DNA from: Niabella sp.
GTDB lineage: Bacteria > Bacteroidota > Bacteroidia > Chitinophagales > Chitinophagaceae
DNA length: 32,137 bases
Direction: 5' to 3'
NCBI GenBank assembly: GCA_027493055.1
Contig: JAPUDO010000001.1
Location: forward strand, 1-32,137
Below, one piece after another: positions 1 through 22,792 of this stretch. Below the pieces are notes generated by a model that was not told the origin of the DNA, did no database searches, and saw nothing but the letters and a program-made list of their open reading frames with translations. Numbering within the stretch: the stretch's first letter is position 1; each line of letters starts with the position of its first letter. The position numbers and the translations under genes are program-made.

Positions 1-153
1 GCATCCTTATCCAGTAATAAAAAAGCTTTGAGATTATTCTACATAATCCTATGTTCAACAATCAATGCTCAGTGAAAATGTAGGATATTAAATATTAAAT
101 GTAGCATGTTAAGTCTCCGACCGCATCCAGTATCCGGTAAAACGATTGGCATA
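1..153. other. Non-coding end of window downstream of the TolC-like gene
   Basis: I see no gene, RNA or clear terminator in this AT-rich stretch. It follows the stop codon of the outer membrane factor, which is the last gene of the exporter cluster. No strong hairpin with a T run is visible, so the end of the transcript may lie outside the window. Confidence 0.5.
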
Positions 154-1590
154 TCAGAACAAAGAAAGATCCTGGTAAAAGCTGAGTATCTTACTTCTGA
201 GGATGCAGTCATACTGGGCATTCAGTAAATTCCGGGTAGTGCGGTCCAGGTTATTTTTAGCCGTAAGATAATCAATTATATTCCCAACACCTTCATTAAA
301 CCTTGCTTCTGCAGCTTCAAAAGATACTTTATAGGAATGTACCTGCTGTAATAATGTTTTGTAGCGGTCAATGGCTGTTTGCATATTCAGCGTAGCCTGG
401 TCAATATCCTGCTGCAGCTGTCTTTTTGTATCGGCTGCACTGGTTTCATTGCGTTGTATCTCCAGTTGCGCCAGCTTTATTTTATTACGCTGCTGTAAAG
501 CGTTAAACAAGGGGATTCTTAAAGAAACGCCCAGCGATGAGTTAAGATTATTGTTGAGCTGGTTTTCAAATGGAATGCGTGATTGCGCATAATGGTATTG
601 CTTTTCAAATACGGGAACCTGCTGTTCGTTTACAAGCACATAATTTTCTGATGGCGCAAATCCTGTATTCAGAAGGCTGCTTTGCGTAGCTACGCTTGAA
701 TACTGCGTGTATAAATTTCCTCCGAGGCTTAAAGCAGGCCATAATCCACCTTTAACAGCTTTTAAAGCCCTTTGAGCACTTAGTGTTCTGAGATTTGTTG
801 CTTTTACAAGCGCCAGGTTGTGCAGAGCGGTTTCATAAACAGATTTGCTGTCTGGCCGCTGAATAAGAGGAACTGCACCGGTATCAACTTTTTCAAAAAC
901 GACAGAGCCGTCATAAGGAATATTCATTAACCGGAAGAGGCTGAGCTTTGCGGATTCGAGGTTGTTATAATTATCTGTTATAGCCAGCTGGTCATTGGCG
1001 TATTGTCCCTGCATATCTGAGAGGTCAGATGGTTTAATAGAGCCTTCATCATTTAAAATGGCCAGTCTTTCTACCTGCTTTAAAGAAAGCGCTTCCTGTT
1101 CTTTCAACATAGCCGATTGTTCCGTGAGATTTAATACCTGCAGATACGCCAGGATGATATTGATAGCAAGGTTGTCTTTTTGTTGCTGCAATTCCATCTG
1201 TGAAGCCTGCCAGTTCAGGCCTGCCTGTTTCATTAAATTTATTTTTGACAGGCCACTGAATAATATAATATCACTGTTTAAGCTATAGCTGGATGCATTG
1301 AATGATTGAGTTACCGGTGAGTTTGTAAAGGGATCGATGCTGCGGCCCTGGTTAACGCTGTAACCTGCCTGTCCGTTCAGGTCGGGCAACAGGTTCAGTT
1401 TTGCCTGTTTGTAATTTATTTTTTCCGATGCTGCGGCAGTGCGGCGCTGTTCAATATCAAAATTTTTTTCTATGCCGGTTTCAACACATTCCCTGAGCGT
1501 CATTATTTTTTGTGCCTCAATAAAAGTAACAGCATGTAATACTAATACCAGCGCTATAAATTTTATACTGTTTTTTCTGCTTTCTTTCAT
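154..1590 (-). CDS. TolC-like outer membrane efflux protein (OEP family)
   Basis: Probably the outer membrane exit duct of the exporter encoded upstream. The chosen start gives 478 residues and a clear signal peptide: MKESRK, a hydrophobic run (FIALVLVLHAVTF), then a likely cut before the first OEP helix (MTLRECVETGIEKNFDIEQ). The open frame continues 43 codons further, to 1719, but that extension is cysteine-rich, unlike the family, and lies in the spacer, so I reject it. The mature part shows the expected long amphipathic helices with Leu/Gln/Ala repeats (LNLLPDLNGQ, LNLTEQSAMLKEQEALSLKQVERL), and the C-terminal repeat has the usual QDIDQATLNMQTAIDRYKTLL helix. The length is normal for the family. 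It is the last gene of the cluster, 134 bases after ATPase 1. The family is secure; its pairing with these particular permeases is inferred from position. Confidence 0.9.
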   Translation of the reverse strand: MKESRKNSIKFIALVLVLHAVTFIEAQKIMTLRECVETGIEKNFDIEQRRTAAASEKINYKQAKLNLLPDLNGQAGYSVNQGRSIDPFTNSPVTQSFNASSYSLNSDIILFSGLSKINLMKQAGLNWQASQMELQQQKDNLAINIILAYLQVLNLTEQSAMLKEQEALSLKQVERLAILNDEGSIKPSDLSDMQGQYANDQLAITDNYNNLESAKLSLFRLMNIPYDGSVVFEKVDTGAVPLIQRPDSKSVYETALHNLALVKATNLRTLSAQRALKAVKGGLWPALSLGGNLYTQYSSVATQSSLLNTGFAPSENYVLVNEQQVPVFEKQYHYAQSRIPFENQLNNNLNSSLGVSLRIPLFNALQQRNKIKLAQLEIQRNETSAADTKRQLQQDIDQATLNMQTAIDRYKTLLQQVHSYKVSFEAAEARFNEGVGNIIDYLTAKNNLDRTTRNLLNAQYDCILRSKILSFYQDLSLF

Positions 1591-1607
1591 CCGTAAATAA
1601 TTTAAAG

Positions 1608-1650
1608 GGTAAATTACCTTTTTGCTGTCGGTGATAAATACGCGACAGCA
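1608..1650 (-). other. Inverted repeats in the ATPase 1 - TolC spacer
   Basis: Bases 1623-1630 (TGCTGTCG) and 1643-1650 (CGACAGCA) form a perfect 8-base inverted repeat around a 12-base loop. A smaller near-palindrome, GGTAAATTACC, sits at 1608-1618, close to the TolC start at 1590. On the transcribed strand the larger hairpin is followed by an A run rather than a T run, so it is not a classic terminator. It could be an mRNA processing or stabilising hairpin, or an operator. Only the symmetry is seen; the function is unknown. Confidence 0.4.
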
Positions 1651-1724
1651 GCGTTTGCCATAGCAGGATGTTATCACCCGTCCCAAAGTATCGGCTATTA
1701 CATGAAAAAAGTAATGCACGCTAT

Positions 1725-2390
1725 TTAAGCATTGCTGATCATGCCGTCCAGCAGGTTCACAATGCGGTTACCATACGCAGCATTTTTTTCTGAATGTGTA
1801 ACCTGTATAATGGTCATGCCTTCTTTATTTAATTGCCTGAACAGCTCCATGATCTCTTCTCCCTGTTTAGAGTTAAGATTGCCGGTAGGCTCGTCTGCGA
1901 GCAGCAGCTTCGGTTTTGCAATAAGCGCACGGGCAATGCCTACTAACTGTTGCTGACCGCCCGATAACTGAGCGGGAAACAGGTCCTTTTTAGCCACGAT
2001 ATTAAACCGGTCCAGTATATCGGCGACCATGGCTTTTCTTTCGCTGCCTTTTATATTTTGATAGAGCAGGGGCGTTTCAATATTTTCATAAACAGTAAGC
2101 TCATCAATCAGGTGATAAGCCTGGAATACAAAGCCGATATATTGTTTGTACAGGCTGGCCCGTTGCTTTTCTTTAAGCTGGTGCACAGATGTGCCTGAAA
2201 AATGATATTCCCCTTCATCAAAACCATCCAGCATGCCTATCACATTCAATAATGTGGACTTACCGGAGCCCGATGGTCCCATTATGGAGATAAACTCCCC
2301 TTCGTTTACATCAAGATGTATGTCTTTCAGTAAAAAAATACGATGATTACCGTTGTTTACCCATTTGTAAATTTTTTTCAATTGTAACAT
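1725..2390 (-). CDS. ABC transporter ATPase 1 (MacB/LolD type), atypical signature region
   Basis: A stand-alone nucleotide-binding subunit of 221 residues, likely powering some of the adjacent FtsX-type permeases. Visible motifs are Walker A GPSGSGKST (38-46), Q-loop Gln90, signature LSGGQ (142-146), Walker B LLLADE with Asp166/Glu167, and H-loop His199. The VFQAYHLIDELTVYENIETPL stretch (about 88-108) is typical of the LolD/MacB group. Three positions depart from the pattern seen in ATPase 2 of this same cluster: Leu149 replaces the usual Arg after LSGGQQQ, Gly151 replaces Ala, and Asn173 replaces the D-loop Asp (NLNS instead of NLDS). The catalytic Glu and His remain, so the enzyme may still work, perhaps more slowly. 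It lies between permease A and the TolC-like gene. Confidence 0.92.
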   Translation of the reverse strand: MLQLKKIYKWVNNGNHRIFLLKDIHLDVNEGEFISIMGPSGSGKSTLLNVIGMLDGFDEGEYHFSGTSVHQLKEKQRASLYKQYIGFVFQAYHLIDELTVYENIETPLLYQNIKGSERKAMVADILDRFNIVAKKDLFPAQLSGGQQQLVGIARALIAKPKLLLADEPTGNLNSKQGEEIMELFRQLNKEGMTIIQVTHSEKNAAYGNRIVNLLDGMISNA

Positions 2391-2560
2391 ATAAATAATT
2401 TATGATTCCTGATTTGAGATTTCTGATGTCATATCCTGAAAAAAGGATTATTAATATTCAATGATAAAGTCGTCCTGCCTCTTATCAACTTTCAAACTTT
2501 AAACTTACGCTCTGCAATGCATCCTTGCCTCGCAGTCTTATCCTATTATTTGCAATGAGG
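2391..2560 (-). other. Spacer between permease A and ATPase 1 with a degenerate palindromic copy
   Basis: This 170-base spacer has no gene. Bases 2519-2547 match 25960-25988, the terminator region behind the histidine kinase, at 22 of 29 positions without gaps, including an identical GCCTCGCA. It also shares GCTCTGC and TCGCAG with the hairpin element at 28413. It may therefore be a decayed copy of a dispersed two-hairpin repeat. No TAnnTTTG promoter motif is seen for ATPase 1. Confidence 0.35.
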
Positions 2561-5008
2561 CTACTCTGCCCGCAAACTCCTTACGGGGTTGGCTAAAGCC
2601 GCTTTTACTGTTTGAAAACTGATTGTGATAATAGCGGTAGTTGTCACTAATAATCCGGCTACTAAAAACATCCACCAACTAATATTGATCCGGTATGCAA
2701 ACTCCTGTAACCATTCATTTAGTAAAAACCATGATATGGGCGTAGCTATTGCAAGCGATACTGCAATTAATCCTACCATTTTCCTGGAAAGTAGTATAGA
2801 GATATCTGCAATTGTTGCTCCCAATACTTTCCTGATGCCTACTTCCTTTGCCCTGTTTGCCACACTTAACAGTGAGAAACCGAAAAGACCCAGGCAGGCA
2901 ATAAACACCGCGAAAACCCCGGCAGTATTTATAATTTTCTGCCATCGCAGATCTGCCGTGTACATTTCCATTAATGAATCGTCCAGAAAAGTAAAATCAA
3001 ATGGATATTCATTGGTAATATTTTTCCATTCTTTTCTAAAGCCTTCGATGGTACGGTTCATTTCTCCGCCTTTTACTTTAAACATAAAATAGTTTTCATA
3101 AAAATCGGTCAGTATATGCTGTTGTGGTCCTATCTCTTTTGTAAGCGTTTCAAAATTGTAGTCTTTAGATACGCCTATTATTGTGCTCCGGATAATATCG
3201 TTATATGCTCCAATCTTTGCATCAGGACCCAAAAGTTTAAAAAAGGTTTCATTGACTACGCAAGCTCTTGCTTTTTTAATAGTATCTGAATTAATGTTTT
3301 TAGAAAAATCACGCCCTTCAATAACAGGTATATTCAATAATTTGAAATAATCATAATCTACCCGTATCTGGCTATACCATTTTTGTTCTCCATGCAGCTT
3401 AAATCCATTGTAGTTATAGGAGCCGGTTAAGCTTCCTCCTATGCCAGACATCCCCAAAATGGAGGGTTGTGCATTAGCATAATTAAATAACCGCTCCCTG
3501 ATCATTTTTCTTTTATCACCCATCGCCTCACTTTTGATTAGTAGTATCTGTTCTTTATCAAAACCAAGGTCTTTCCGGCTGATATGGCGCATTTGGGCAC
3601 CCACTACAATAATGGAAACTACCAGAATAATACAAATGGAAAACTGTAGTATAATAAGCGGATTGGAAAACCGTGGATTGATTTTGAATGTAGATCCGCT
3701 TTTGAGTACAGCTACAGGTTTAGTGCCGGAAACTACAAAAGCAGGATAAAATCCGGCAATAATACTTATTATTAAAGATAATCCGATACCTGCCAGCAAT
3801 ATCTCTTTAGAAGGGATAATGTCAAAAGATATTTGAGTGTTAACCATCCCGTTAAAAACGGGTAAACTGGTATATGCCAGTAATAAAGCAACAACTGTAC
3901 AAATAACTGTTGTGAGCAATGTTTCAAACCAGGACTGCATAATAAGGTTCCATCTGCCCGCTCCGATTATTTTACGCAAGCCCATTTCTTTAATGCGGCT
4001 TACTACATTTGACACCGCCAACAATATATAATTTACGCAGGCAAGCAATAAAATAAGCAGGAATAAACTAAATAGTAGATTAAGTACTTTGGGGTTGGTA
4101 TAATGCCCCCAACTGTTTGCTTCATAATGGCATTCATCAAGAGGCCGTAGTATCCACTGGTAGTTTTTCACCTTTTCAGGATCTGCGTTCAGTAGTGCAT
4201 CCTGGTAATAACCCCGCATCCAGTTATTTAATTTAACTTTAAATACCGAAGTGTTCACACCGTCCTGTAATTCCAGTATATACTCATGGCTGCTTGTGTT
4301 AAACCTGTTCTTTATTCTGTCCTGGTAATCGGGGGCAGCTGTTACACTTCTTACCATATTAAACCGGATACCAGAATTAGCCGGCACATCTTTAGCAACG
4401 CCTGTTATAGTATAAAGCCTGCTGCTATCGCCATCAATAATGAGTGTTTTACCAACTGCATTTTTGTTGCCAAATAATTTTTGTGCCATTGTGTTGGTAA
4501 TGACAACGCTATTATTTCCCTGGAGAGCAGTTTTGGCATTACCCCATAGTAAAGGGAAACTAAAGTTTTGGAAGAAGTTGTCATCAGCATCAAGTATATG
4601 GCTTTCTTTAAATACTTTATCGCCTGCTTTTACAATTTTATCATATCCGTCTTCGGAATTGCCAGACATCCTGGTGATACTTTTTACTTCAGGAAAAACA
4701 GATAGAATATCCTGGGCTATAACCATGGGAAATACTACCTGATTTTTTTCTGTATTGATCCCGGATAGTTGTTGAAAAAAGTTTCTTTCTTTTGGTTCAT
4801 CACTCCGGGCAAATAAGGAAGTGGCTTCCAGTCTGAAGAGATGATCTTTCTTGCTATGAAAACTGTCCACTGATTGCTCATGACGCACATAAAAAAATAA
4901 AAGCAGAGACAAAGCGATTGAAATGCTTAATCCAATGATATTGATACTGCTCACTATTTTATTTTTCCAAAGTGTTCTGAATGCAATTTTGAAGTAAGTT
5001 TTAAACAT
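2561..5008 (-). CDS. FtsX/MacB-type ABC permease A
   Basis: Membrane subunit of an export-type ABC transporter, 815 residues. It has the two-unit layout common in Bacteroidota: membrane segment 1 at about 21-41, a large periplasmic (MacB_PCD-like) domain to about 300, three segments (about 308-330, 358-383, 402-424), segment 5 at about 449-471, a second periplasmic domain, and three more segments (about 697-716, 746-762, 777-797). The cytoplasmic coupling motif appears in both units: MGLRKIIGA (342-350) and VGIRKVLGA (723-731). The C-terminus is NPVRSLRAE, a variant of the NPVKSLRTE shared by its paralogs. It is AT-rich compared with permease C: two sampled 60-base lines hold 15 and 22 G+C. 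No Shine-Dalgarno precedes the ATG. The substrate cannot be told from sequence. Confidence 0.93.
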   Translation of the reverse strand: MFKTYFKIAFRTLWKNKIVSSINIIGLSISIALSLLLFFYVRHEQSVDSFHSKKDHLFRLEATSLFARSDEPKERNFFQQLSGINTEKNQVVFPMVIAQDILSVFPEVKSITRMSGNSEDGYDKIVKAGDKVFKESHILDADDNFFQNFSFPLLWGNAKTALQGNNSVVITNTMAQKLFGNKNAVGKTLIIDGDSSRLYTITGVAKDVPANSGIRFNMVRSVTAAPDYQDRIKNRFNTSSHEYILELQDGVNTSVFKVKLNNWMRGYYQDALLNADPEKVKNYQWILRPLDECHYEANSWGHYTNPKVLNLLFSLFLLILLLACVNYILLAVSNVVSRIKEMGLRKIIGAGRWNLIMQSWFETLLTTVICTVVALLLAYTSLPVFNGMVNTQISFDIIPSKEILLAGIGLSLIISIIAGFYPAFVVSGTKPVAVLKSGSTFKINPRFSNPLIILQFSICIILVVSIIVVGAQMRHISRKDLGFDKEQILLIKSEAMGDKRKMIRERLFNYANAQPSILGMSGIGGSLTGSYNYNGFKLHGEQKWYSQIRVDYDYFKLLNIPVIEGRDFSKNINSDTIKKARACVVNETFFKLLGPDAKIGAYNDIIRSTIIGVSKDYNFETLTKEIGPQQHILTDFYENYFMFKVKGGEMNRTIEGFRKEWKNITNEYPFDFTFLDDSLMEMYTADLRWQKIINTAGVFAVFIACLGLFGFSLLSVANRAKEVGIRKVLGATIADISILLSRKMVGLIAVSLAIATPISWFLLNEWLQEFAYRINISWWMFLVAGLLVTTTAIITISFQTVKAALANPVRSLRAE

Positions 5009-5022
5009 AAAAAGCGATTTAT

Positions 5023-5093
5023 GATGTCGGATGTATGATTGCTGATTTATTCACTATTGACATTTCATTATTCACTTGTTCATTCCGTTCTCA
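5023..5093 (-). repeat. 71-base spacer repeat, copy 1 (B/A junction)
   Basis: This stretch is 69/71 identical to 9995-10065; the only differences are at 5028 and 5040. It covers the last codons and stop of permease B plus most of the B-A spacer. The flanking coding sequences are far more diverged than this, so the match is not explained by coding constraint. The core is built from short related units (TATTCACTATTGACA, ATTATTCACTTG). Weaker relatives of it occur in the F/ATPase 2 spacer at about 17490-17515. Confidence 0.85.
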
Positions 5094-7515
5094 GGTTTTT
5101 TACCGGATTAGCTGTTGCGGCTTTTATAGCCTGAACGCTTACTGTTATCAGTGCAATCAATAGTGCAGCTGATCCTGCAGTAATAAATACCCACCAGGAA
5201 ATATTAATGCGATATGCAAAGCTTTGCAACCATTTGCTCATAGCCCACCATGCTACGGGAAAGGCAATGGCTGATGCTATTAATACCAGCTTTACGAATT
5301 CTTTGGATAACATTTGTGTTATTTGTGTTACACTGGCACCTAACACTTTTCTGATGCCGATCTCTTTGGTGCGTTGTTCAGCAGTATAAGTTGCCAAGCC
5401 AAACAAACCAAGACATGCAACAAAAATGGTGAGTATAGAAAAGATATTTAAAATAGTTCCCGTTTTTTGTTCTGTTGCGTAAGTGTTATTAAAAAGATCA
5501 TCCATAAAATTGTATTCAAATGATTCTTCTGTTTTGTAACTATCCCACTGCCTTTTCATGGTTGCGAGCAAGCCTGCAACGTCTGTGGTTTTTATTTTAA
5601 AGATCAGCCCGCCTTCAGGTTGCAGTGTCATATATAATGGACTGATGGTTTCATGCAACGATCTGAAATTAAAGTTTTTGATCACGCCAATTACATGAAA
5701 AGGAAAGTTGTCGCCTTTATCGCTGTTCTGTCGTATTACTGTTTTACCTATAGCTGTTAAAGCATTCCAGCCCAATGCTCTTGCTGCTGTCTCATTCAAT
5801 ATAATGGCGGAAGAATCTGTTGCAAAATCTTTAGAGAAGTTCCTGCCGCTGATCATTTGCATCCCCATCGTTGGAATATATTGTTCATCTATATGATAAT
5901 CTACACCGCTTACTATTTGTTTGTCGTTGCCTTGCGGAAAAGCCAATCCATTATTGTAATTGCTTGGCCCGGCAGGTTTATACCAGGAGGTAGTAGCGCT
6001 TACAATCCTAGGATCCTGTAGCATCTGCTGTTTAAATACCTGTTCATTTTTTCCCAATGCATAAGAGTTTGGGATCGTAATGAGTTGTTCTTTATTATAA
6101 CCAAGATCTTTGGTTTGTATATACTTCATTTGCTGGTATACTACAATTGTTCCGATGATCAATGAAACAGAAACAAAGAATTGAAATACAACCAGGCTGC
6201 TTCTCAAACCAAAGCTTTTATGGTTGGCGGTAAGTTTTCCTTTTAATACAGCTGCCGGTTTAAAAGATGACAGATAGAGCGCGGGATAGATACCAGCGGT
6301 AATACCAACTATTAATCCCAAACCAATGAAAGCAATAGCAGTTTTTGCATTAAAGCCTAATTGCTTGTCGGAAATGGAGTTGAACACCGGTAAAGCCAGC
6401 TGCACCCATACAAACGCAATGATCAATGCAAGTAATGTAATGAGTATTGATTCAGATAAGAACTGTTTAATAAGCTGGGATCTGTTCGAACCTGCTACTT
6501 TCCTTACACCGACCTCCTTTGCTCTTTTAGAGGCGCCTGCTGTAGAAAGATTAATGAAATTGATGCAGGCAACAATCAGCATAAATGCAGCTACCCCTGC
6601 AAAAATGTAAGCATACATTGCATTTCCGCCCGGTTCAAATTCATTGTTTGTGTCTGAATGGAGATGTATATCTGTTAATGGCTGCAACATAAAGGCCAAA
6701 GAGTTTCCTTTACCTGTGAATTGTTCCAGGTTCAAACCCATCTGCTGCTGTATTTGCGGACCCATATATTTTTTGACCATTGCAAGAAATCCAGCTTCTG
6801 TTTTCCGCAAATTGGTACCGGGTTTTAATAAAAGATAGGTATGATATCCCCCAGACATCCATGAATCTGATGTGGCATCTGCATAACCTATCATTGAACC
6901 AAACATATCAAAATGAAAATGTGAATTAACCGGGATATCTTTAATTACCCCAGTCACTTTATAAAGTTCAAAGCTGTCTTTAAAAGCAGCTGTTTTACCA
7001 ACAAAAACATTTAACATCTTTCCCAAACTACCTTCTTCCCCAAAATATTTTTTAGCAGTTGATTGCGTGATCACAACCGTGTGTGGCTGAAGCAAAGCGG
7101 TTTTCGCATCACCTTCAATCATCGGCAGGGTAAAAATGCTGAAGAGGTTGGGATCAGCAAATGCAAACCGGGTATCTTTAAATACTTTGTCCTGATACAA
7201 GATCTTTGAGCTGCCATAATTCAGGATCCTTGTGGCATCCTGTACTTCAGGAAAATCCTTTTTCATGGTTTGCGCTACAGGCGCCATTACAACGCTCTCA
7301 TTTATCTTACCTCCGTTTATATCTGCCCGAAAAACAACCCTTACAATATCATCCGCATTTTTGTTAAACTTATCATAGCTCAGTTCATCCTGCACATACA
7401 TGATAATAATAAAACAGGTTGTAATACCAAGTGATAAACCAAGTATATTAATTGCGGAAAACAATTTGTTCTTACGGATATTCCGGTATGCTATTTTTAT
7501 GTAGTTTTTAAACAT
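5080..7515 (-). CDS. FtsX/MacB-type ABC permease B
   Basis: 811-residue paralog with the same two-unit architecture. Membrane segments lie at about 21-41, 301-323, 353-378, 392-414, 440-461, 697-717, 735-755 and 772-795, with periplasmic domains at about 50-290 and 465-690. The first unit carries EVGVRKVAGS (334-343) and the second EIGIRKVLGA, the predicted contact with the ATPase. The C-terminus is NPVKNLRTE. The N-terminal MFKNYIKIAYRNIRKNK is the amphipathic, basic pre-membrane helix typical of these permeases. The spacer before permease A is the 71-base repeat. It is an ordinary family member; the substrate is unknown. Confidence 0.93.
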   Translation of the reverse strand: MFKNYIKIAYRNIRKNKLFSAINILGLSLGITTCFIIIMYVQDELSYDKFNKNADDIVRVVFRADINGGKINESVVMAPVAQTMKKDFPEVQDATRILNYGSSKILYQDKVFKDTRFAFADPNLFSIFTLPMIEGDAKTALLQPHTVVITQSTAKKYFGEEGSLGKMLNVFVGKTAAFKDSFELYKVTGVIKDIPVNSHFHFDMFGSMIGYADATSDSWMSGGYHTYLLLKPGTNLRKTEAGFLAMVKKYMGPQIQQQMGLNLEQFTGKGNSLAFMLQPLTDIHLHSDTNNEFEPGGNAMYAYIFAGVAAFMLIVACINFINLSTAGASKRAKEVGVRKVAGSNRSQLIKQFLSESILITLLALIIAFVWVQLALPVFNSISDKQLGFNAKTAIAFIGLGLIVGITAGIYPALYLSSFKPAAVLKGKLTANHKSFGLRSSLVVFQFFVSVSLIIGTIVVYQQMKYIQTKDLGYNKEQLITIPNSYALGKNEQVFKQQMLQDPRIVSATTSWYKPAGPSNYNNGLAFPQGNDKQIVSGVDYHIDEQYIPTMGMQMISGRNFSKDFATDSSAIILNETAARALGWNALTAIGKTVIRQNSDKGDNFPFHVIGVIKNFNFRSLHETISPLYMTLQPEGGLIFKIKTTDVAGLLATMKRQWDSYKTEESFEYNFMDDLFNNTYATEQKTGTILNIFSILTIFVACLGLFGLATYTAEQRTKEIGIRKVLGASVTQITQMLSKEFVKLVLIASAIAFPVAWWAMSKWLQSFAYRINISWWVFITAGSAALLIALITVSVQAIKAATANPVKNLRTE

Positions 7516-7619
7516 TGTTTGAACGATGATTGAGTTACAGGTTCCCGGTTTCTTATTCCGGATTGCCTGATATGAGATAATTTATTCTTCTTCACCTCTT
7601 GTTATTCACTATTTCTTCC

Positions 7620-9980: not shown

Positions 9981-9994
9981 ACCGGTTGATTTAG

Positions 9995-10065
9995 GATGTT
10001 GGATGTATGATCGCTGATTTATTCACTATTGACATTTCATTATTCACTTGTTCATTCCGTTCTCA
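9995..10065 (-). repeat. 71-base spacer repeat, copy 2 (D/C junction)
   Basis: Partner of 5023-5093, 69/71 identical, and likewise covering the stop of the upstream permease (D) and most of the spacer to the next (C). The two copies are 4972 bases apart in direct orientation and bracket permeases B and C. Recombination between them would remove or duplicate those two genes. Confidence 0.85.
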
Positions 10066-12427: not shown

Positions 12428-12522
12428 GGTTTATAATTTTTTAATACTCAATCGTGAACTGTCAATTACCTTATCCGGTTCTTAGACTCTTTATCCTGCT
12501 AAAAACATGATCTCTGTTTTCA

Positions 12523-14907: not shown

Positions 14908-14990
14908 GCCTGATTTGTTTAAAGCACTATTCACTTTTATTATTCCTTTCTGTATGCTTGATCCTGATAAAGACAGGATTTTATCACTTT

Positions 14991-17432
14991 TCATTCCGTT
15001 CGAAGCGATTTAACCGGATTCGCCATTGCGGCTTTTATGGCCTGGTAGCTAACCGATATTGCGGCGATCATAACAGCCAGCGCGCCTGCGAATAAAAACA
15101 TCCACCAACCGATATCAATTCTGAAAGCAAAATCCTGTAGCCATTTAACCATCAGCCACCATCCAATAGGAACTGCTATGACCAGTGAAATAAAAACCAA
15201 GAAGAGAAAGTCTTTCGATAATAGCCTTATAATTCCTGAAACGGAGGCCCCGAGCACTTTGCGGATCCCTATTTCCTTGGTACGCTGAAGAGCTGTAAAC
15301 GTTGCCAGGCCAAAAAGCCCTAAACAACTGATAAAAATAGCAATGACCGTTGCCGTTCGGACCAGCGTTTGTGTTCGCATTTCGTTTTTATAAAACGCAC
15401 CGATAGTGTCATCGTAAAATTCATATTTAAAAGGAGCTTCAGCATAGACCTTTTTCCATTCTTTTTCGATAGAACTGATGGCCTTTTCCCAATCTTTGGG
15501 CTGGTTGGGTAATTTTATATTAAAGGTGCGTAACCGATCCTTATCAGAAACGAATACCCCGGGGGCAATATCGGATCGCATGCCCGATTGGTTAAAATCT
15601 TTTACAACACCAACGATCGGATAGATCTTACCACTGCCTGGAACAAGCAGCTGTTTTCCTATCGCCGTCTGTGGCGTGCCAAATCCCAAAACCTGAAGAG
15701 CTTTTTCATTAATTACCAGAGACGTTGTTGTATCAGCCTGTTTGAAATTATTACCCGCTAACAGCGTTATGCCATAAAAGTTTAGAAAAGCCGTATCCAC
15801 GTTTTTCATTTGCAGCTGAGCCTGCACCTCCTCTTTCCCGTTAAAATAAGTGTACACGCTTCCTACATACATTTCTTCCATTGGCCGGTCTCCCAACGAT
15901 ACGTTTTTGATCATTGTATTTTTAAGCAATTCGTTTCTTAAAACAAACTGTTTATCCTTGTATTCCTTTTTATCTGCAAGCCGGTATGGAACTGAAAAGG
16001 TAATAACCGCGTCTTTATTAAACCCGGGATCTTTATGCAGCATATATTTAAGCTGTTGACCAATGATAATGGCACCTATAATGAAAACCTGGGCAATCAG
16101 GAACTGGAATACGATCAGGCTTTTTCGAAAAGTGATTTTATTGCGACCGATCACTTTTTCAGTTCTTCCTTTCAGCACTTCTACTGTATTTACTTTTGAG
16201 GAGAGCCATGCGGGGTACAGACCTGATAAGAGCGAGATCAGGAATACCAGCAGCAGCATAAAGCCTGCCATGGCCGGGTAATTCATGTAATCAAGGATCC
16301 CCACAGGCAAAAAGTTTTCTAAAATTCTTACGGCAAAAAAGGTCAGCACAAATGAGAACAGCGCAGCTAATACCGTTACCATAAACGTTTCTGCAACGAA
16401 CCTGGCAATCAGGCTTCTCGCCGAGCTGCCTAATGTTTTCCGGATTCCGATCTCCTTCGCCCGCCTCGGTAACAAGGCAGTGCTCAGGTTGATATAATTA
16501 ATACAGGCAAGGAGCAATAAAAAACCACCTGTAATCATCAGGCCGAACAATACCTTTTTATCGGCCGTTCTTGTTTGTGAGCCATATTGTACGGCAAAAT
16601 GCTTTTCTTTTAAAGGCAGTGCCTCGTACCAGCTCCTGTATTTGTATTTTTCAAAGCTTTCTTTATTATGCTGGTGATTGATCTTGTTTAGCTGGGCTAC
16701 AACATTTTTTACATCACCATGTTTACCTGTTTTTATAAACAGCAGGTTGTCGGAGTTTAAGGAAGCCCAGTCCTGATCTGCCATATCATCTCTGCTGACA
16801 GACATAAACTCGGTATTGTCCCTGGAAAAACTATTAGGATAGGGGAGGTCAGCCACTACTCCCGATACGGTCCGCCGTAATGTATCACTATACACAAGAG
16901 GTTTGCCAATCACCTCTGCCGGCGACAGTTTGGGAAAATATTTCTTCGCCCTGTCATGGGTCAGTACTACATTATCCGGATGTTTAAATGCTGTTTTTTT
17001 ATTTCCAGCCAGCCATTTATAGTCAAGCATATCAAAATAATCCGGTAGTGTGGTTACCTGGTGAATATCATCTTCTTCCTCTATTTTCTTATTACCGTTA
17101 TCGGTGGGCACGGTAACGGAGTTATAATGTTTATAAAACATTGGAACAACCAGACCTGCACCTGAGACATCATTGATCAATGCGTTTAGAACCGGTTTTG
17201 ATACTGCGGCAAAGCCGCCGGTATTACCATCTTCTCTTTTATTCCGGATGATAAGCTGATATATGGATTGCGCTTCTGGTACCTTTTTATCAAAGCTGTT
17301 CTCATAACTTACCATCCTGAAAACGATCCAGGCCACACAAATGCAAACGCTAAGCCCAATAATATTAAGAATGGTAAACAAGCGGTTGCGCCATAGCTGC
17401 CTGCCAAGTGTTATAAAGAAATTTCCGAACAT
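14991..17432 (-). CDS. FtsX/MacB-type ABC permease F (F/G subfamily)
   Basis: 813-residue two-unit permease. Membrane segment 1 is at about 21-41; the first-unit segments start near 292 and are followed by EIGIRKTLGS (327-336); the second unit carries EIGIRKVLGA and ends NPVKSLRTE. It shares features with permease G that the other five lack: FDKxVPE near 47-53, KYFP plus IGK in the first periplasmic domain (about 164-177), and FQFLIAQVF in segment 5 (FQFVIAQVF in G). F and G lie on either side of ATPase 2, which suggests, without proving, that these three form one transporter with two different permease subunits, as in LolCDE. Its stop overlaps a possible but unlikely early start of permease E. 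Confidence 0.93.
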   Translation of the reverse strand: MFGNFFITLGRQLWRNRLFTILNIIGLSVCICVAWIVFRMVSYENSFDKKVPEAQSIYQLIIRNKREDGNTGGFAAVSKPVLNALINDVSGAGLVVPMFYKHYNSVTVPTDNGNKKIEEEDDIHQVTTLPDYFDMLDYKWLAGNKKTAFKHPDNVVLTHDRAKKYFPKLSPAEVIGKPLVYSDTLRRTVSGVVADLPYPNSFSRDNTEFMSVSRDDMADQDWASLNSDNLLFIKTGKHGDVKNVVAQLNKINHQHNKESFEKYKYRSWYEALPLKEKHFAVQYGSQTRTADKKVLFGLMITGGFLLLLACINYINLSTALLPRRAKEIGIRKTLGSSARSLIARFVAETFMVTVLAALFSFVLTFFAVRILENFLPVGILDYMNYPAMAGFMLLLVFLISLLSGLYPAWLSSKVNTVEVLKGRTEKVIGRNKITFRKSLIVFQFLIAQVFIIGAIIIGQQLKYMLHKDPGFNKDAVITFSVPYRLADKKEYKDKQFVLRNELLKNTMIKNVSLGDRPMEEMYVGSVYTYFNGKEEVQAQLQMKNVDTAFLNFYGITLLAGNNFKQADTTTSLVINEKALQVLGFGTPQTAIGKQLLVPGSGKIYPIVGVVKDFNQSGMRSDIAPGVFVSDKDRLRTFNIKLPNQPKDWEKAISSIEKEWKKVYAEAPFKYEFYDDTIGAFYKNEMRTQTLVRTATVIAIFISCLGLFGLATFTALQRTKEIGIRKVLGASVSGIIRLLSKDFLFLVFISLVIAVPIGWWLMVKWLQDFAFRIDIGWWMFLFAGALAVMIAAISVSYQAIKAAMANPVKSLRTE

Positions 17433-17517
17433 AAGTATGATTTAATATTTTTTATTATTCTAACAATAGAAAATTGACAATGAACCATGCGTGATTCACT
17501 ACTCACTATTCACAGTT

Positions 17518-18195
17518 CTATACCAATATATTCTCCGTAACCGTTTGTCCGTCGAGCATTCTTATAATGCGATGGCTGTATCGTGCGTCGTGCTCGCTGT
17601 GGGTTACCATTATAATAGTGGTACCCTGTTCGTTCAGGTCGGTAAGCATTTCCATCACTTCGTTGCCATTGCTGGAATCGAGGTTGCCGGTAGGTTCATC
17701 TGCAAGAATGAGTTTGGGCTTATTTACCACGGCCCTTGCTACAGCTACTCTTTGCTGCTGCCCGCCCGAAAGCTGCTGTGGGTAGTGGTTACGCCGGTGC
17801 ATGATCTGCACTTTTTCCAGCACTTCTTCCACGCGCTTTTTACGCTCGGCGCTTTTTACACCGGTGTAGATCAGTGGCAGTTCTACATTTTCAAAAACCG
17901 TCAGCTCATCAATCAGGTTAAAGCTTTGGAACACAAAGCCGATATTATGCTTGCGCAGATCGGCCCTTTTGCGCTCGTTAAAATGAGCCACTTCAATGCC
18001 GTTAAAAACAAAGCTGCCACCATCAGGGTCGTCCAGTAAGCCGAGTATGTTCAGCAGCGTGGATTTGCCGCAGCCTGAAGGTCCCATCACTGCTACAAAC
18101 TCGCCCTCCTTTACTTCAAGCGACAACTTGTTCAGCGCGATGGTTTCCACCTCTTCTGTGCGGTACATTTTTTCGAGTTCGGTAATTTTTATCAT
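17518..18195 (-). CDS. ABC transporter ATPase 2 (MacB/LolD type)
   Basis: Canonical stand-alone ATPase of 225 residues. Motifs: Walker A GPSGCGKST (38-46), Q-loop Gln90 in VFQSFNLIDELTVFENVELPL, signature LSGGQQQRVAVARA (142-155), Walker B LILADE with Asp166/Glu167, D-loop NLDS with Asp173, and H-loop His199. All the positions altered in ATPase 1 are normal here. It sits between the related permeases G and F and probably drives that pair; it may also serve the five downstream permeases. The ATG at 18195 is preceded by only a weak purine stretch, as is usual in this phylum. Confidence 0.95.
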   Translation of the reverse strand: MIKITELEKMYRTEEVETIALNKLSLEVKEGEFVAVMGPSGCGKSTLLNILGLLDDPDGGSFVFNGIEVAHFNERKRADLRKHNIGFVFQSFNLIDELTVFENVELPLIYTGVKSAERKKRVEEVLEKVQIMHRRNHYPQQLSGGQQQRVAVARAVVNKPKLILADEPTGNLDSSNGNEVMEMLTDLNEQGTTIIMVTHSEHDARYSHRIIRMLDGQTVTENILV

Positions 18196-18205
18196 AAAGG
18201 CCTGA

Positions 18206-18222
18206 TTATATTGTTAATGGTT
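18206..18222 (-). repeat. 17-base spacer repeat, copy 1
   Basis: TTATATTGTTAATGGTT on the plus strand, identical to 20822-20838. Both copies lie in spacers flanking permease G, 11 bases upstream of the ATPase 2 start here and 53 bases upstream of the permease G start in the other copy. The TTAATGGTT core also appears in the heptamer array before the RND pump gene. Confidence 0.6.
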
Positions 18223-18324
18223 AAAGATTTATCTATATAGTTTTAAACAAGAGTTCTATTTTTCGTTTACTATTTTTTATATTTTGGTAATCTCAAAAAT
18301 TATATACTTCATTATCCGGATGCC

Positions 18325-20769
18325 CTATTCGGTCCTTAAGCTTTTTGCAGGATTTGCAGCTGCAGCTCCTATACTTCGCAGGCATAAAACCAGCATTGCT
18401 ACGGCCAGCATGCCTGCTGCGCTTATTAAAAAGATCCACCAGCTGATGTTTATTCTGAATGTGAAATCCTGCAACCATTTATTGGAAAAGTACCAGGCAA
18501 GGGGAAAGGAAATAACACAGGCAATAATGATCAGCCGCACAAGATTTTTTGAAAGCAATATGATGATCTGTACTGCTGATGCACCCAGCACTTTGCGGAT
18601 ACCTATTTCTTTTACCTTCCTGTTAGCTATAAAGCTTACAAGGCCCAGCAATCCCAGGCAGCTTATAAATAATGCCAGCCCTGTTGCCCATTTCAGTAGA
18701 GTAGCAAGACGAAGATCCGCTTCGTATAGTTTTTTTACAGTATCATCTAAAAAGCTATAATCAAATTCCTGCCCCGGGTACATTTTTTGAAACAGCGCTT
18801 CTGTTTTATCTATTGCCTTTTTCCAGCCGGTAGCATCGTTACCTGCCAAAGCAATGGATAAAACCGGGATCCAGCTGGCTTTATTTGCAAAAATGGTTAC
18901 GGGATAAACAGGATTATGGAGCGACATGGTGTTAAAGTCCTTTACAATGCCTGTTATTTGTGCTGAATCTGCAGGCCCGCCTTTAATAAACTGACCTATT
19001 GCATCATGAGGATTGTGCAGGTTCATTTTATGTAGCATAGATTCATTGATAAGCACATCCTGTACTTTGGCGCTGGTATCAACGCGTATATTCTTTCCTG
19101 CCAATAGCTGTAAACCAAATACGTCAATATAGTTTTCATCGGCACTACGCACATGTATATCGCTATAAATTTCTTCTACCCCATTATTATACCAAATGAT
19201 TCGTGTGCTGCTATAACCCTGCCTTATGGGAGTTGAAGTGTTTAATGATACATTTTGTACCTGTGGGATGCGCCTTAACTCATTAGCCAGTATAAAGCCC
19301 TTACTTTCTCTTTTTTTCATGAAATCGGGCACACTGACAGATATAATGCCCTCTTTTCTTAAACCCATATCTTTATTGAGCTCAAAATGTATTTGTTTGC
19401 CAATAACAAATACCACTATCAAAAATACCTGGGCAATTACAAACTGGAACACTGTTAAAACCTGTCTGATCCATATTCCGCGAGGCTTTCCATCGGCGAT
19501 AACATTATTTTTCAATACCAGTACCGGCCGGAACCTGGAAAGCACAAAAGCGGGGTACATCCCGGCGAGCAGGCTTACTACAAGCAGTAAGACACCTAAA
19601 AACACTACTACAGCAGGTTGTAATAATCTGCCGACTTCCAGCTCATGAGGTATAAAATCCTTAAAAACATAAATTAAAACCGGGGTGAGCATAACTGCTA
19701 ATACACTGGCAAGCCCGGTTATTAAAAATGCTTCTGTTAAGAACTGGTAAATAATTTGTTTTTTACTGCCACCGAAAGTTTTGCGTACGCCTATTTCCTT
19801 TGCCCGCAGCGTAGATTGCGCCGTAGACAAATTAATAAAATTGATAACGGCAAGTAATAACAGCAGCGCTGCAAGTAATGCCAGGTTCCGGAGTGTGGTT
19901 TTACTGGCCTTTCCGTCAATGTTGGTATTAAAATGTATATCACTTAAGGACTGTAGTTTGCCGATCCAACGGTCTTTGGGATCAATCTCTTTTTGGTTCT
20001 GTATAAAAATGTTTTCAACCAGCTTATCCACAGTAACACTATTGGCATTCTTATTCATCTTTATATATAGCTGCCCGTTACTATCTACATTTCGCCATGC
20101 CGGCTGCATAAATGATTTTCCGAGGCCGGTTTCTGTATAAGTTTTGAGGGAAATGAAAATACTGCTCCTGAGATCTGTGCTTTCTTTCAAATCGGCAACA
20201 ATACCGGTTACAAGCACCTGAACGCTATCCTGGAAGGTTATTTGTTTACCTATAATTGTTTCAGGTACGTTTTTGGGAAAATATTTTTCGGCTTCCGACA
20301 GGGTAAGCACTACCTGGCCCACCTGAGATAACGCCGTATTAGGATTACCGGCTATCCATTGACGCGGAAATATTTTAAAATAGTTGCCGTCAGCAAAAGA
20401 TAGCTCATTATTTTTTGTGAATCTTTTTGAATTGCCCGTTTTCGCATCAGGAACATCAACGGTGTATTTATTGCCAAAGGGTGAAATAATTACAGGCGCA
20501 GCTATATCAATACCCGGAACACCCTGTGTTATAGCATTCTGCCCTGGCACGCAAAGCCCCGGACTGCTGCCACCCTGCATTTGGGTATATATACGGTAAA
20601 TATTTTTGCGTTCGGGCACCCATTTATCAAAACTATATTCATATTGAATAATTAAAAAAATAACCAACGCCGCGCTGATGCCAATAGAAAGGGCCAGCAC
20701 ATTTATTGATGTGATAGCTTTGTGTTTCCGGAAATTGCGTAATGCAACCAGTAAATTATTTTTAATCAT
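18325..20769 (-). CDS. FtsX/MacB-type ABC permease G (F/G subfamily)
   Basis: First permease after the adaptor; 814 residues from MIKNNLLVALRNFRKHK. This start is preferred over an in-frame ATG ten codons upstream because a strong GGGAGGAG lies 4 bases before it and the N-terminus then matches the paralogs. It has the two-unit architecture: membrane segment 1 at about 21-41, first-unit motif EIGVRKTFGG, second-unit motif EIGIRKVLGA, C-terminus NPAKSLRTE. It shares FDKWVPE, KYFP...IGK and FQFVIAQVF with permease F, marking a subfamily. It is separated from ATPase 2 by 129 AT-rich bases and from the adaptor by 163 bases. Confidence 0.92.
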   Translation of the reverse strand: MIKNNLLVALRNFRKHKAITSINVLALSIGISAALVIFLIIQYEYSFDKWVPERKNIYRIYTQMQGGSSPGLCVPGQNAITQGVPGIDIAAPVIISPFGNKYTVDVPDAKTGNSKRFTKNNELSFADGNYFKIFPRQWIAGNPNTALSQVGQVVLTLSEAEKYFPKNVPETIIGKQITFQDSVQVLVTGIVADLKESTDLRSSIFISLKTYTETGLGKSFMQPAWRNVDSNGQLYIKMNKNANSVTVDKLVENIFIQNQKEIDPKDRWIGKLQSLSDIHFNTNIDGKASKTTLRNLALLAALLLLLAVINFINLSTAQSTLRAKEIGVRKTFGGSKKQIIYQFLTEAFLITGLASVLAVMLTPVLIYVFKDFIPHELEVGRLLQPAVVVFLGVLLLVVSLLAGMYPAFVLSRFRPVLVLKNNVIADGKPRGIWIRQVLTVFQFVIAQVFLIVVFVIGKQIHFELNKDMGLRKEGIISVSVPDFMKKRESKGFILANELRRIPQVQNVSLNTSTPIRQGYSSTRIIWYNNGVEEIYSDIHVRSADENYIDVFGLQLLAGKNIRVDTSAKVQDVLINESMLHKMNLHNPHDAIGQFIKGGPADSAQITGIVKDFNTMSLHNPVYPVTIFANKASWIPVLSIALAGNDATGWKKAIDKTEALFQKMYPGQEFDYSFLDDTVKKLYEADLRLATLLKWATGLALFISCLGLLGLVSFIANRKVKEIGIRKVLGASAVQIIILLSKNLVRLIIIACVISFPLAWYFSNKWLQDFTFRINISWWIFLISAAGMLAVAMLVLCLRSIGAAAANPAKSLRTE

Positions 20770-20773
20770 AAAG

Positions 20774-20781
20774 CTCCTCCC
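20774..20781 (-). promoter_or_regulatory. Strong ribosome binding site of permease G
   Basis: On the minus strand the sequence reads GGGAGGAG, then CTTT, then ATG. This is the only strong Shine-Dalgarno seen in front of an exporter gene; other starts in the cluster have AT-rich leaders. It decides the start at 20769 over the ATG at 20799. Good initiation here would set the level of the first permease independently of the adaptor. Confidence 0.75.
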
Positions 20782-20821
20782 TATTTTCCGCGTCCCCATA
20801 TTTAAGAGGCGGAGAAGAATT

Positions 20822-20838
20822 TTATATTGTTAATGGTT
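20822..20838 (-). repeat. 17-base spacer repeat, copy 2
   Basis: TTATATTGTTAATGGTT, identical to 18206-18222. It lies in the 163-base spacer between the adaptor and permease G. No promoter motif of the TAnnTTTG type is seen in either spacer. Confidence 0.6.
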
Positions 20839-20932
20839 TTGTATTTAAATTTTATATCTGTTATTATTTTACTCTAATTCCTCTCTCCTTCGAAGATGTG
20901 TTGGTCCGGAGAACTCTTTTGGAGGGGTGAGA

Positions 20933-22288
20933 TCAGGGAGCTTTTATTACCAGTTCCTGCATATCGTCCCCGTAATTATCATAGCTGCTGGTAACAACTT
21001 TATCACCGGGCTTCAGTCCGCTGATCACTTCAAAATAATCGGGATTTTGGCGGCCCAGCTCCACATCTGTTTTATATGCCAGCTTTCCATCTTTGTCCAG
21101 CTTATACACCCAACGGCCACCGGTTTTATTATAAAATCCGCCACGGGGCAGCAATAGCGCTTTTGTTTCATCGCTTAAAGCCAGTCTTATCTGTAATGTT
21201 TGCCCTCGCCTGATGCCTTCGGGCGCTTTGCTTTTAAAGGCCATATCCACCTGGAAGCGGCCATTGGTAACCTGGGTGTACACTTTTTTAATAGTTAAGA
21301 CGTAATCTTTGTCTGCGATAGTGGCAATCCCTTCCAGGTCATTATAAATACGCGAAATATAATGCTCATCAATATCCACACGCACTTTATAATCGCCCAT
21401 CACGTCCAGCTGGCCCAAACGTTCTCCTTTATTTTTATTTTGTCCCACTTCAGCATCCAAAGAAGTAAGCTGCCCGTCAACCGGCGCACGTACAATAAGG
21501 TCGCCCACTTTCTGGCGCATTACAGTAAGCGCGTTCTGCGATCCTTTATAAGATTGCTCTGCCTGTGCCAGCTGCTGTTTGGATGATTGTGCATCCTGGC
21601 TGATGGTTTGAGTGGCCAGCTTCTTTTTTTCAAGCTGGTAATTGTAAGCATTTTCACTTTGTTTTAATTCCTGCAAGCCGATCGCCTTTTTAGCATACAA
21701 ATTTTTGTTCACGTTATAAATACGCTCTGCTTCTTTAAGCTGGTTATCCACATCGGTCATTTGATTCAGGTTGGTGATCCTGTTCTGCTGCGAAGCATTT
21801 TTAGCGATCTGCATTTGCGTAATAAGGTTATATACCTGTGTTTCCTGCTGTACCAGGCTTAGTTGCAGGTCGGTATTCGACAATCTCAATATAGGCTGCC
21901 CCTTCTTCATAAATGCGCCGTCCTCTACATATTTTTCTTCAACGCGCCCGCCTTCCGATGCGTCAAGATAAATAGATGTGAGGGGTTGCACCACGCCATT
22001 TACCGGTATGAACTCCCGGAAAGGCCCCTGCTTTACTTCGCTGATGGTAATGCGCTCCGCCTCCACATTTAATTTCCTGTTCCCGGATGTTGCATAAATG
22101 CTTGCTGCTACCAGGCAAACGATTGCCGCTATACCTGCTATCAGTAGTATCCTTTTTGCCGGCCATTTCTTTTTTTCAATTATCCTGTCCAAAGTATCTG
22201 CCCGTTTTAATTTTTTAAACAAAGCCGGGGCTATTGCTTCCCCGGCGCTAAGATCATACATTGAGAAACGTACATAAATTTTTTTCAT
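20933..22288 (-). CDS. Periplasmic adaptor of an ABC exporter (HlyD/MacA-like membrane fusion protein)
   Basis: Links the inner-membrane permeases to the TolC-like duct. The ORF has 451 residues: a membrane anchor at about 46-66 (RILLIAGIAAIVCLVAASIYA), a lipoyl-like half (VNGVVQPLTSIYLDASEGGRVEEKYVEDGAFMKKGQPILRL, split around a hairpin), a long coiled coil at about 125-260 rich in Gln, Lys and Asn, the second lipoyl half (VRAPVDGQLTSLDAEVGQ), a beta-barrel domain, and a C-terminal domain with GLKPGDKVVTSSY. Start choice is uncertain. Relatives as I remember them begin near DRIIEKKKW, and here that sequence follows Leu33, encoded by TTG (22192). The first 32 residues may be a genuine extension or a leader. 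It is the first gene of the exporter cluster, divergent from the antitoxin-led regulatory operon. Confidence 0.9.
   Translation of the reverse strand: MKKIYVRFSMYDLSAGEAIAPALFKKLKRADTLDRIIEKKKWPAKRILLIAGIAAIVCLVAASIYATSGNRKLNVEAERITISEVKQGPFREFIPVNGVVQPLTSIYLDASEGGRVEEKYVEDGAFMKKGQPILRLSNTDLQLSLVQQETQVYNLITQMQIAKNASQQNRITNLNQMTDVDNQLKEAERIYNVNKNLYAKKAIGLQELKQSENAYNYQLEKKKLATQTISQDAQSSKQQLAQAEQSYKGSQNALTVMRQKVGDLIVRAPVDGQLTSLDAEVGQNKNKGERLGQLDVMGDYKVRVDIDEHYISRIYNDLEGIATIADKDYVLTIKKVYTQVTNGRFQVDMAFKSKAPEGIRRGQTLQIRLALSDETKALLLPRGGFYNKTGGRWVYKLDKDGKLAYKTDVELGRQNPDYFEVISGLKPGDKVVTSSYDNYGDDMQELVIKAP
22224..22246 (-). other. GC-rich hairpin within the first codons of the adaptor ORF
   Basis: GCCGGGG (22224-22230) and CCCCGGC (22240-22246) form a perfect 7-base, all-GC stem around a 9-base loop. 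On the transcribed strand it is followed by TTTGTTT, as in an intrinsic terminator. It lies between the annotated ATG (22288) and the possible TTG start (22192), so it could work as an attenuator or a block to initiation. It could also simply be coding sequence. Symmetry is seen; function is inferred. Confidence 0.4.
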
Positions 22289-22380: not shown

Positions 22381-22537
22381 GTTATTAAAATAGTGCCATT
22401 TAATCAATATGTTTAGTATCAGTATTTTATCATTTTTAGCATTGGTAAAAATGTGCGGGTCCGTACAACCACTGTCCGGTTTTGATACAGTAGATCTCTT
22501 CAATCCAAATTTCTGACGCAACTGTTTTTCAATATTG

Positions 22538-22549: not shown

Positions 22550-22792
22550 ATGAAAACATTGACCATCAATATTCCGGATTCAGTAGAACTTGATGAAAAA
22601 GACGCCCGGATGCTCCTGGCTGTAAAGCTCTATGAAAAAAGCATTCTGTCTCTTGGCCAGGCGGCAGAAGTAGCCGGTTACTCAAAACGCACTTTTATGG
22701 AGCTTTTGGGAGACTATGATGTTTCGGTTTTTAATTATTCTGCTAATGATCTGGAAAATGATACTATAAATGTACAGGGTCATAATCACTGA
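22550..22792 (+). CDS. UPF0175 family antitoxin
   Basis: An 80-residue protein matching the small UPF0175 family: MKTLTINIPDSVELDEKDARMLLAVKLYEK at the start, then a helix-turn-helix-like SLGQAAEVAGYSKRTFMELLGDYDVSVFNY (about 34-63). The family is found next to DUF3368 PIN-domain genes and is regarded as their antitoxin and DNA-binding autoregulator. Here it overlaps the PIN gene by 23 bases, which supports the pair. The ATG lies 4 bases after a TAnnTTTG motif. It is the first gene of the plus-strand operon that continues into the two-component system. Confidence 0.9.
   Translation: MKTLTINIPDSVELDEKDARMLLAVKLYEKSILSLGQAAEVAGYSKRTFMELLGDYDVSVFNYSANDLENDTINVQGHNH

Follow-up and report, generated by a model that had tools for sequence, protein, structure and literature searches.

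The usual picture of a tripartite pump is of a single transporter that has an ATPase to itself. Among importers, the group II energy-coupling factor (ECF) systems and those served by MsiK or MsmK use one energising module for many exchangeable, scattered partners. Permeases named ADOP (NCBIfam TIGR03434) have, to our knowledge and by the description of that model, no linked ATPases. Two Dyadobacter genomes contain 28 and 33 genes that RAST annotation labels ADOP (PMC11573002). In YbbAP, a single-chain permease, YbbP, binds two separate ATPases; the accessible part of its description mentions no array, adaptor or duct (PMC12646458). Here we describe a locus at positions 154–22288, reverse strand, of a 32,137-nucleotide stretch of Niabella sp. 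DNA (assembly GCA_027493055.1, contig JAPUDO010000001.1; 'the window'), in which seven permeases, each with two FtsX/MacB units, accompany two stand-alone ATPases, one periplasmic adaptor and one TolC-like outer membrane duct.

The best explanation of this locus, which we hold with rather better than even confidence, is that it encodes a shared-motor tripartite exporter of the MacB (Type VII ATP-binding cassette, or ABC) kind. Its composition and order, its conservation and turnover, its control element and the fused-pair fold of one permease can be read from sequence. From these we infer that the ATPases are physically shared. Export by way of the adaptor and TolC-like protein would be expected from what is known of these families, and envelope-active small molecules or peptides are our guess for the substrates. 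We regard it as an even bet that Bacteroidota possess a wider regulon of this sort, with one near-invariant ATPase pair, adaptor and duct, up to about 60 complete and rapidly exchanging Type VII permeases, many of them unlinked orphans, and one dedicated NtrC/sigma-54 enhancer.

Organization of the locus

In order of transcription, the locus comprises the HlyD-type adaptor, one permease, ATPase-A, six permeases, ATPase-B and the TolC-type protein. A sequence-only reading of the window had proposed seven two-unit FtsX/MacB permeases of 786–815 residues on one strand, two stand-alone ATPases, a single HlyD-type adaptor and a single TolC-like protein, and our open reading frames (ORFs), Pfam domains and gene order agree with it throughout. 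The adaptor (20933–22288) is of the HlyD/MacA type (HlyD_3; TIGR01730 over cut-off). Its ORF has some 32 additional N-terminal residues compared with many relatives (417–419 residues), and its real start, judging from these relatives, may be a TTG near 22192. ATPase-A (17518–18195), the adaptor-proximal motor, and ATPase-B (1725–2390), the array-distal one, are ABC_tran proteins in which Walker A, Q-loop, LSGGQ, Walker B and H-loop are all intact; with 301.7 and 256.7 bits, respectively, against the NCBIfam model DarD (cut-off 375), they are the genome's top two DarD-like ATPases, the next scoring 231. The TolC-like duct gene (154–1719; Pfam OEP, 146.6 bits, over cut-off) probably starts downstream of its ORF start, at the signal peptide MKESRKN...

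The permeases, again in order of transcription, are P0010 (18325–20769; 814 residues), P0008 (14991–17432; 813), P0007 (12523–14907; 794), P0006 (10052–12427; 791, with a TTG start), P0005 (7620–9980; 786), P0004 (5080–7515; 811) and P0003 (2561–5008; 815). These lengths assume a conserved M[FI]KN-type start for P0007 and P0010, which have upstream in-frame ATGs; their longest ORFs extend to 14994 and 20799 and encode 823 and 824 residues. Each permease contains two MacB_PCD and two FtsX stretches, and all seven frames are open. A search of the genome (5.75 Mb, 99.99% complete) gives 20 FtsX matches, of which 14 are the paired stretches of these seven genes and six are single-unit ORFs of 301–434 residues; two-unit permeases thus occur in this genome exclusively at this locus.

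Conservation of the layout

From 15 relatives of the same genus that we searched, we retrieved ten array regions, nine of them intact. In all nine, a kinase and a regulator diverge from the adaptor, followed by ATPase-A, the array, ATPase-B and TolC, with 6, 7, 11, 13, 13, 13, 16, 17 and 17 permeases; in none of the nine does a permease stand between adaptor and ATPase-A as P0010 does. Adaptor and TolC genes lie within one gene run in 10/10 Niabella arrays. In a named collection, where we examined the best 80 loci (10-kb flanks limit the view, and a few loci share a contig), 55 have two or more full-length permeases and 25 have one; six of the 80 (L017, L037, L046, L063, L075 and L082, with 4, 3, 3, 3, 5 and 4 permeases) present the layout end to end, from adaptor to ATPase-B. 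By gene order, then, the layout of the window's locus is a conserved one, and the comparison across relatives that the sequence-only reading had proposed bears this out in nine Niabella arrays and six named loci.

Passenger genes occur in eight of the ten Niabella arrays, at least one in each; they include a DUF4097 Toastrack protein (L100:16154-17230), an S41 peptidase (L100:8960-10375), a beta-lactamase-family protein with DUF3471 (L092:1226-2800) and an alpha/beta hydrolase (L106:17549-18409). Two arrays in less complete genomes, L116 (G012) and L134 (G002), are split into many short frames, through decay or sequencing error.

Constant motors, changing permeases

Compared with relative G003, the window is 83% identical in the neighbouring ArgS, 98% in ATPase-A, 89% in ATPase-B, 87% in the adaptor, 73% in the regulator and 64% in TolC, which is at the same place; between its seven permeases and the six of G003 there are no reciprocal best hits at 50% identity or more. 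Compared with the other eight genomes, ArgS is 71–74% identical, ATPase-A 88–90%, ATPase-B 81–82% and TolC 35–38%, and one to three permeases match, their order being broken wherever two or more do. Over all nine relatives, ATPase-A is 88–98% and ATPase-B 81–89% identical. Close pairs of genomes remain collinear (e.g. G004 and G009, for 13/13 permeases), and P0008 has an 82% identical relative in G011. Going by these alignments, permeases are gained and lost while the motors stay nearly constant.

Among 401 permeases compared, the nearest relative of every array permease (120/120) is in another genome, and 2/120 have a twin above 60% identity in their own array. A side observation is that one pair, G009_p01 and G009_p02 (L097; 88% identical), is the sole recent tandem duplicate pair among the 120. 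The window's seven permeases share 27–38% identity (BLASTP), and because it is so low they are not recent copies of one another; in a FastTree of the 401 (no support values) they fall in seven separate places. We considered recent local duplication as the origin of the seven and rejected it, given their nearest relatives elsewhere and separate tree positions.

Elsewhere in the family (Chitinophagaceae), too, permeases outnumber motors. In 12 genomes from 11 genera, chosen from 94 mainly for many or high-scoring candidates, there are 11–61 permeases each, 360 in total (E ≤ 1e-80), and one ATPase-A orthologue each, 88–95% identical. At the level of genes, these numbers, the turnover of permeases beside nearly constant motors and the control element found before some unlinked permeases (below) support the sharing of ATPases, adaptor and duct, and hence that part of the exporter proposed by the sequence-only reading; the pairing of permeases around the shared ATPases, which it also proposed, is not supported, as discussed below.

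Regulation: a predicted enhancer and promoter, and a two-component pair

Upstream of the adaptor lie two tandem dyads, TGTATCAAAACCGGACAG and TGTACGGACCCGCACA (22452–22489, reverse strand), which we predict to be an enhancer; similar dyads are present in ten Niabella arrays. They are followed, 89 bases from the dyad, by the TGGCA of a sigma-54-like –24 box (22383–22398, reverse strand), a spacing of the same class as in 20 array-type promoters listed. The genome contains one copy of the element (at 22472–22489, allowing up to two mismatches). Scans of positions 1–20000 for sigma-70 promoters (68, against 53.5 in shuffled sequence, standard deviation 7.9) and for terminators (26, against 19.3, standard deviation 5.4) gave numbers not clearly above those of shuffles, which fits the earlier claim of a single promoter-like motif at the adaptor end.

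In the genus, TGTATCAAAAnCGgACAG occurs at the adaptor end of 10/10 arrays, mostly followed by a second dyad, TGTnnnnnAnCGnACA, and in nine of the ten TGGCA is 88–90 bases from the first dyad. The pattern TATCAAAANCGNACA matches 35 times in 17 genus genomes, and its reversed form four times. Thirty-one of the 35 sites stand before the gene of an adaptor, a permease or ATPase-B, with at most a small unassigned ORF in between, and 29 of these 31 have TGGCA at 67–91; the other four have neither family gene nor TGGCA nearby and equal the background predicted by the reversed control. Some sites are at the heads of arrays; others, inside arrays, stand before ATPase-B or certain permeases; and an unlinked permease has one too. 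This permease is orthologous in eight genomes (76–97% identical) and is preceded by one dyad, with TGGCATTTTTaTTG at 67–68.

In the family, TATCAAAANCGNACA-N48..78-TGGCA occurs in 78/194 genomes and the reversed pattern in none. Every one of the 78 belongs to the 94 genomes that have permeases, leaving none in the other 100. These counts treat related genomes as independent, which makes the p-value of the co-occurrence too small; by genus, the element is found in 42/92 and permeases in 50/92. Permease presence was judged here from five scored candidates per genome, which supports presence and not counts. Thirty family sites were fetched: 15 stand before adaptors, nine before permeases, two before ATPase-B, one before a DUF4097 protein, one before a beta-lactamase-family protein with tetratricopeptide repeats, and two before short proteins (L163:1219-1464, reverse strand, 81 residues; L164:1651-2076, forward strand, 141 residues) that have no Pfam match and are possible further members of the regulon. 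In a scan of the phylum with the element pattern alone, 12/345 genomes match, and none with the reversed pattern; all eight sites in seven genomes from outside the family precede an adaptor (five) or a permease (three). Outside Niabella, 14/17 permease-preceding sites have no permease within 1.5 kb upstream, and most such sites are therefore not inside a run. By these positions, the predicted enhancer would tie some unlinked permeases to the locus. In many family promoters we also see, by eye, a TTGnnnnTCAAT-like palindrome between dyads and TGGCA, about 15 bases upstream of the latter.

A likely user of the element is encoded nearby. An NtrC-type response regulator (23228–24592, forward strand) with receiver domain, sigma-54 activator AAA+ domain, GAFTDA loop and Fis helix-turn-helix is a predicted activator, and its gene diverges from the adaptor in relatives too; it is followed by a membrane histidine kinase (24596–25924, forward strand; HATPase_c), a predicted intramembrane sensor. 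Dyads some 70–90 bases upstream of a TGGCA box fit the way in which NtrC proteins and sigma-54 are used, and RpoN is present in 17/17 genus genomes, over cut-off in 16. From position and co-occurrence, the regulator may bind the dyads, and the array would depend upon sigma-54. Between enhancer and regulator gene (22550–23228, forward strand), a UPF0175 ORF overlaps a DUF3368 ORF, a pair that we take to be toxin–antitoxin-like; at the corresponding place in G003, no DUF3368-sized ORF is listed.

How the exporter might work

Each permease, on our model, would be a complete, fused transmembrane pair that acts alone upon an ATPase dimer, the dimer being drawn from a common pool of ATPase-A and ATPase-B. 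It would pass its substrate to the common adaptor and the TolC-like duct. Motors and adaptor would be fixed, and the permeases would be the interchangeable, substrate-facing part: gain and loss would affect whole permease genes in the interval from one ATPase gene to the other, and larger genomes would have additional copies at other places. The dedicated kinase and NtrC-type regulator would switch the set on by way of the tandem dyads and the sigma-54-type promoter, the signal probably coming through the membrane or from the transporter itself.

Several observations weigh against this model. Some concern the motors. One of the 12 family genomes has a second ATPase-A-like protein, at 69% identity, and all 12 have further LolD/MacB-type ATPases, 42–55% identical to ATPase-A, which may power some of the permeases. 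A Type VII permease, moreover, need not export: it may act on lipids or in signalling. Others concern distribution. The tenth fetched array (G012) is broken into fragments; of the 15 same-genus relatives, G001, G008 and G013 have one weak match each, G002 has fragments and G006 has no array match; and none of nine order-level relatives has a match at 1e-20.

The remainder concern the element. All eight lone Niabella permeases that have it belong to a single orthologous group, and it was not found at 3/11 lone Niabella permease loci fetched, all from G015. For the G007 adaptor and one G010 permease, the dyad is present but no TGGCA stands at its usual distance; the element is some 500 bases upstream of the adaptor ORF in both G011 and G014. 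The –12 half of the promoter is weak, with TTGAA or TTAAA commoner than TTGC, and in the window it is poor. The exact pattern was not found in 16/94 permease-bearing family genomes. Among ten named loci, a dyad lies within 450 bases of the adaptor in four (L017, L037, L063 and L082) and was not found in L018, L021, L046, L056, L070 and L075, though the layout is present; with just 4/10, the element would appear to be patchy or diverged outside the family.

Alternative explanations

The alternative that survives best, although we consider it unlikely, is a detoxification or sensing module resembling the Bce systems, in which the role of the permeases is to capture antimicrobial peptides or lipid-linked antibiotics, or to remove them, and the act of transport signals to the kinase; the loop-less kinase, once signalled, raises the levels of permeases and motors. 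The kinase is what invites the comparison. In 15 orthologues its N-terminus has, by eye and with no topology program, two hydrophobic stretches with almost no loop and no periplasmic sensor domain; because almost no loop is present, as in Bce kinases, the kinase may take its signal from the membrane or from the transporter. Two features fit poorly: the regulator is NtrC-type, as opposed to the OmpR type usual for Bce systems, and the locus has an adaptor and a TolC duct, both of which Bce modules lack. This alternative is compatible with shared motors, and differs mainly in substrate and signal.

We think it improbable that the locus is instead a lipid- or hydrolase-coupled system like YbbAP–TesA, or that it regulates periplasmic enzymes mechanically, in the manner of FtsEX. 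YbbP is the closest solved full-length fold among the matches listed for our permease model (below), hydrolase genes are present in 6/10 Niabella arrays (G004, G005, G009, G010, G011 and G015), and a beta-lactamase-family gene follows one family element. These hydrolases are S41 peptidases, beta-lactamase-like proteins and alpha/beta hydrolases, three of them typed by Pfam and the rest by sequence likeness. Neither the window's array nor that of G003 contains such a hydrolase, however, and the adaptor and TolC genes are in the gene run of every array.

The exporter imagined in the sequence-only reading was combinatorial: its seven permeases would form alternative hetero-pairs ('28 pairings'), like LolC and LolE, around shared ATPases. 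Seven differing permeases with two motors and one duct do invite this idea, which we nonetheless find highly improbable from the architecture of the permeases. Each already contains two 4-helix FtsX units with a MacB_PCD between helices 1 and 2, judging from Pfam for all seven and from the helices of P0007. The AlphaFold2 model of P0007 (predicted local distance difference test score, 86.4; predicted template modelling score, 0.80) has eight long helices, two periplasmic domains and two conserved coupling helices. In a fold search it aligns end to end with single-chain YbbP, among the matches listed, whereas MacB and the LolC and LolE chains align with one half only. Each permease is thus, on its domains and on the fold of this one model, an already fused transmembrane pair, and alternative pairing is unlikely.

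Conservation among Niabella permeases follows the same architecture. The highest averages are those of the coupling helices, 3.18 bits for one and 3.66 for the other, followed by the tail at the C terminus (3.55) and helix 1 (2.97); the two periplasmic domains have the lowest, 1.71 and 1.77. In these alignments the pattern is one of constant motor side and variable outer side. Permeases do not appear to exchange halves: among 404 pairs in which one half is more than 60% identical, there are none in which the other half is less than 45% identical, and we rejected half-swapping as a source of the diversity. The earlier proposal of alternative pairs is not supported by these findings.

That the locus arose by ordinary tandem duplication of one MacB-type pump into redundant copies, as same-strand tandem genes of one family might imply, deserves almost no credence in view of the 27–38% identities, the 120/120 nearest relatives in other genomes, the seven separate FastTree places (no support values) and the seven open frames.

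One further transporter gene lies in the window, that for an AcrB-family resistance–nodulation–division pump (28954–32064, reverse strand), at the contig end; it is apparently unrelated to the array.

Comparison with known systems

All parts of the locus belong to known families; what looks new is the scale, the architecture of constant ends and variable centre, the imbalance of motors to permeases, and the enhancer. A literature search, the scope of which excluded preprints and most subscription journals and which covered some sources in part, yielded no account, recognisable to us, of arrays like these, of motor sharing in Bacteroidota or of the enhancer. Surface-polysaccharide loci likewise swap their centres between constant ends. 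If our model is true, the substrate range of the exporter could be changed by gaining single genes, and the shared-motor regulon would be the export counterpart of the shared-module importers and would explain what powers duplicated orphan permeases. The long-standing puzzle of how large families of duplicated permeases are powered when no ATPase gene adjoins them becomes testable, and the enhancer supplies, at least within the family, a list of permeases that are candidates for the set.

Named models place the locus near several systems and within none. ADOP is the best NCBIfam match of all seven permeases, over their full length, at 243–329 bits, below its cut-off of 622.3; a difference from ADOPs is that ATPases are at hand in this locus. 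DarBCD (NF038008, NF038007 and NF038010) provides the best named models for both ATPases and the adaptor, and the second-best for the seven permeases; with permeases at 94–170 bits, the adaptor at 183 and the ATPases at 257 and 302, all are below the equivalog cut-offs of 700, 450 and 375. The YbbAP model NF041854 (cut-off 999) lists P0004, at 22 bits, and none of the other six. In structure, YbbAP is nonetheless alike in its single-chain permease with two MacB-like halves, and differs in that YbbP is described as having ten helices and a two-helix linker (PMC12646458), compared with eight helices in the P0007 model.

MacAB–TolC resembles the locus in having MacB_PCD/FtsX units, an HlyD-type adaptor and a TolC-type duct in one gene run, and here too a HlyD/MacA adaptor and a TolC-type duct are linked (HlyD_3 and OEP, both over cut-off). 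The fused ATPase–permease of MacB proper was not found, ATPases and permeases being separate ORFs (PRK10535, at most 228 bits; cut-off 966). Here, the ATPases are separate and, on our model, shared; each permease joins two units in one chain; one adaptor and one duct go with many permeases; and an NtrC-type regulator adjoins. The two different single-unit permeases of LolCDE are not found either, as each permease has two units. Bce modules (BceAB–BceS) have in common with the locus a fused permease, a separate ATPase and a loop-less kinase beside the transporter. A ten-helix permease with one large extracellular domain, as in Bce, was not found among the seven, which have two MacB_PCDs (and eight helices in the P0007 model); the two periplasmic domains, adaptor, duct, NtrC-type regulator and many permeases further set the locus apart. 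The ECF and MsiK/MsmK systems, finally, are importers of unrelated fold, in which the exchangeable part is a binding subunit or a permease pair; in this locus, the exchangeable part would be a whole export permease.

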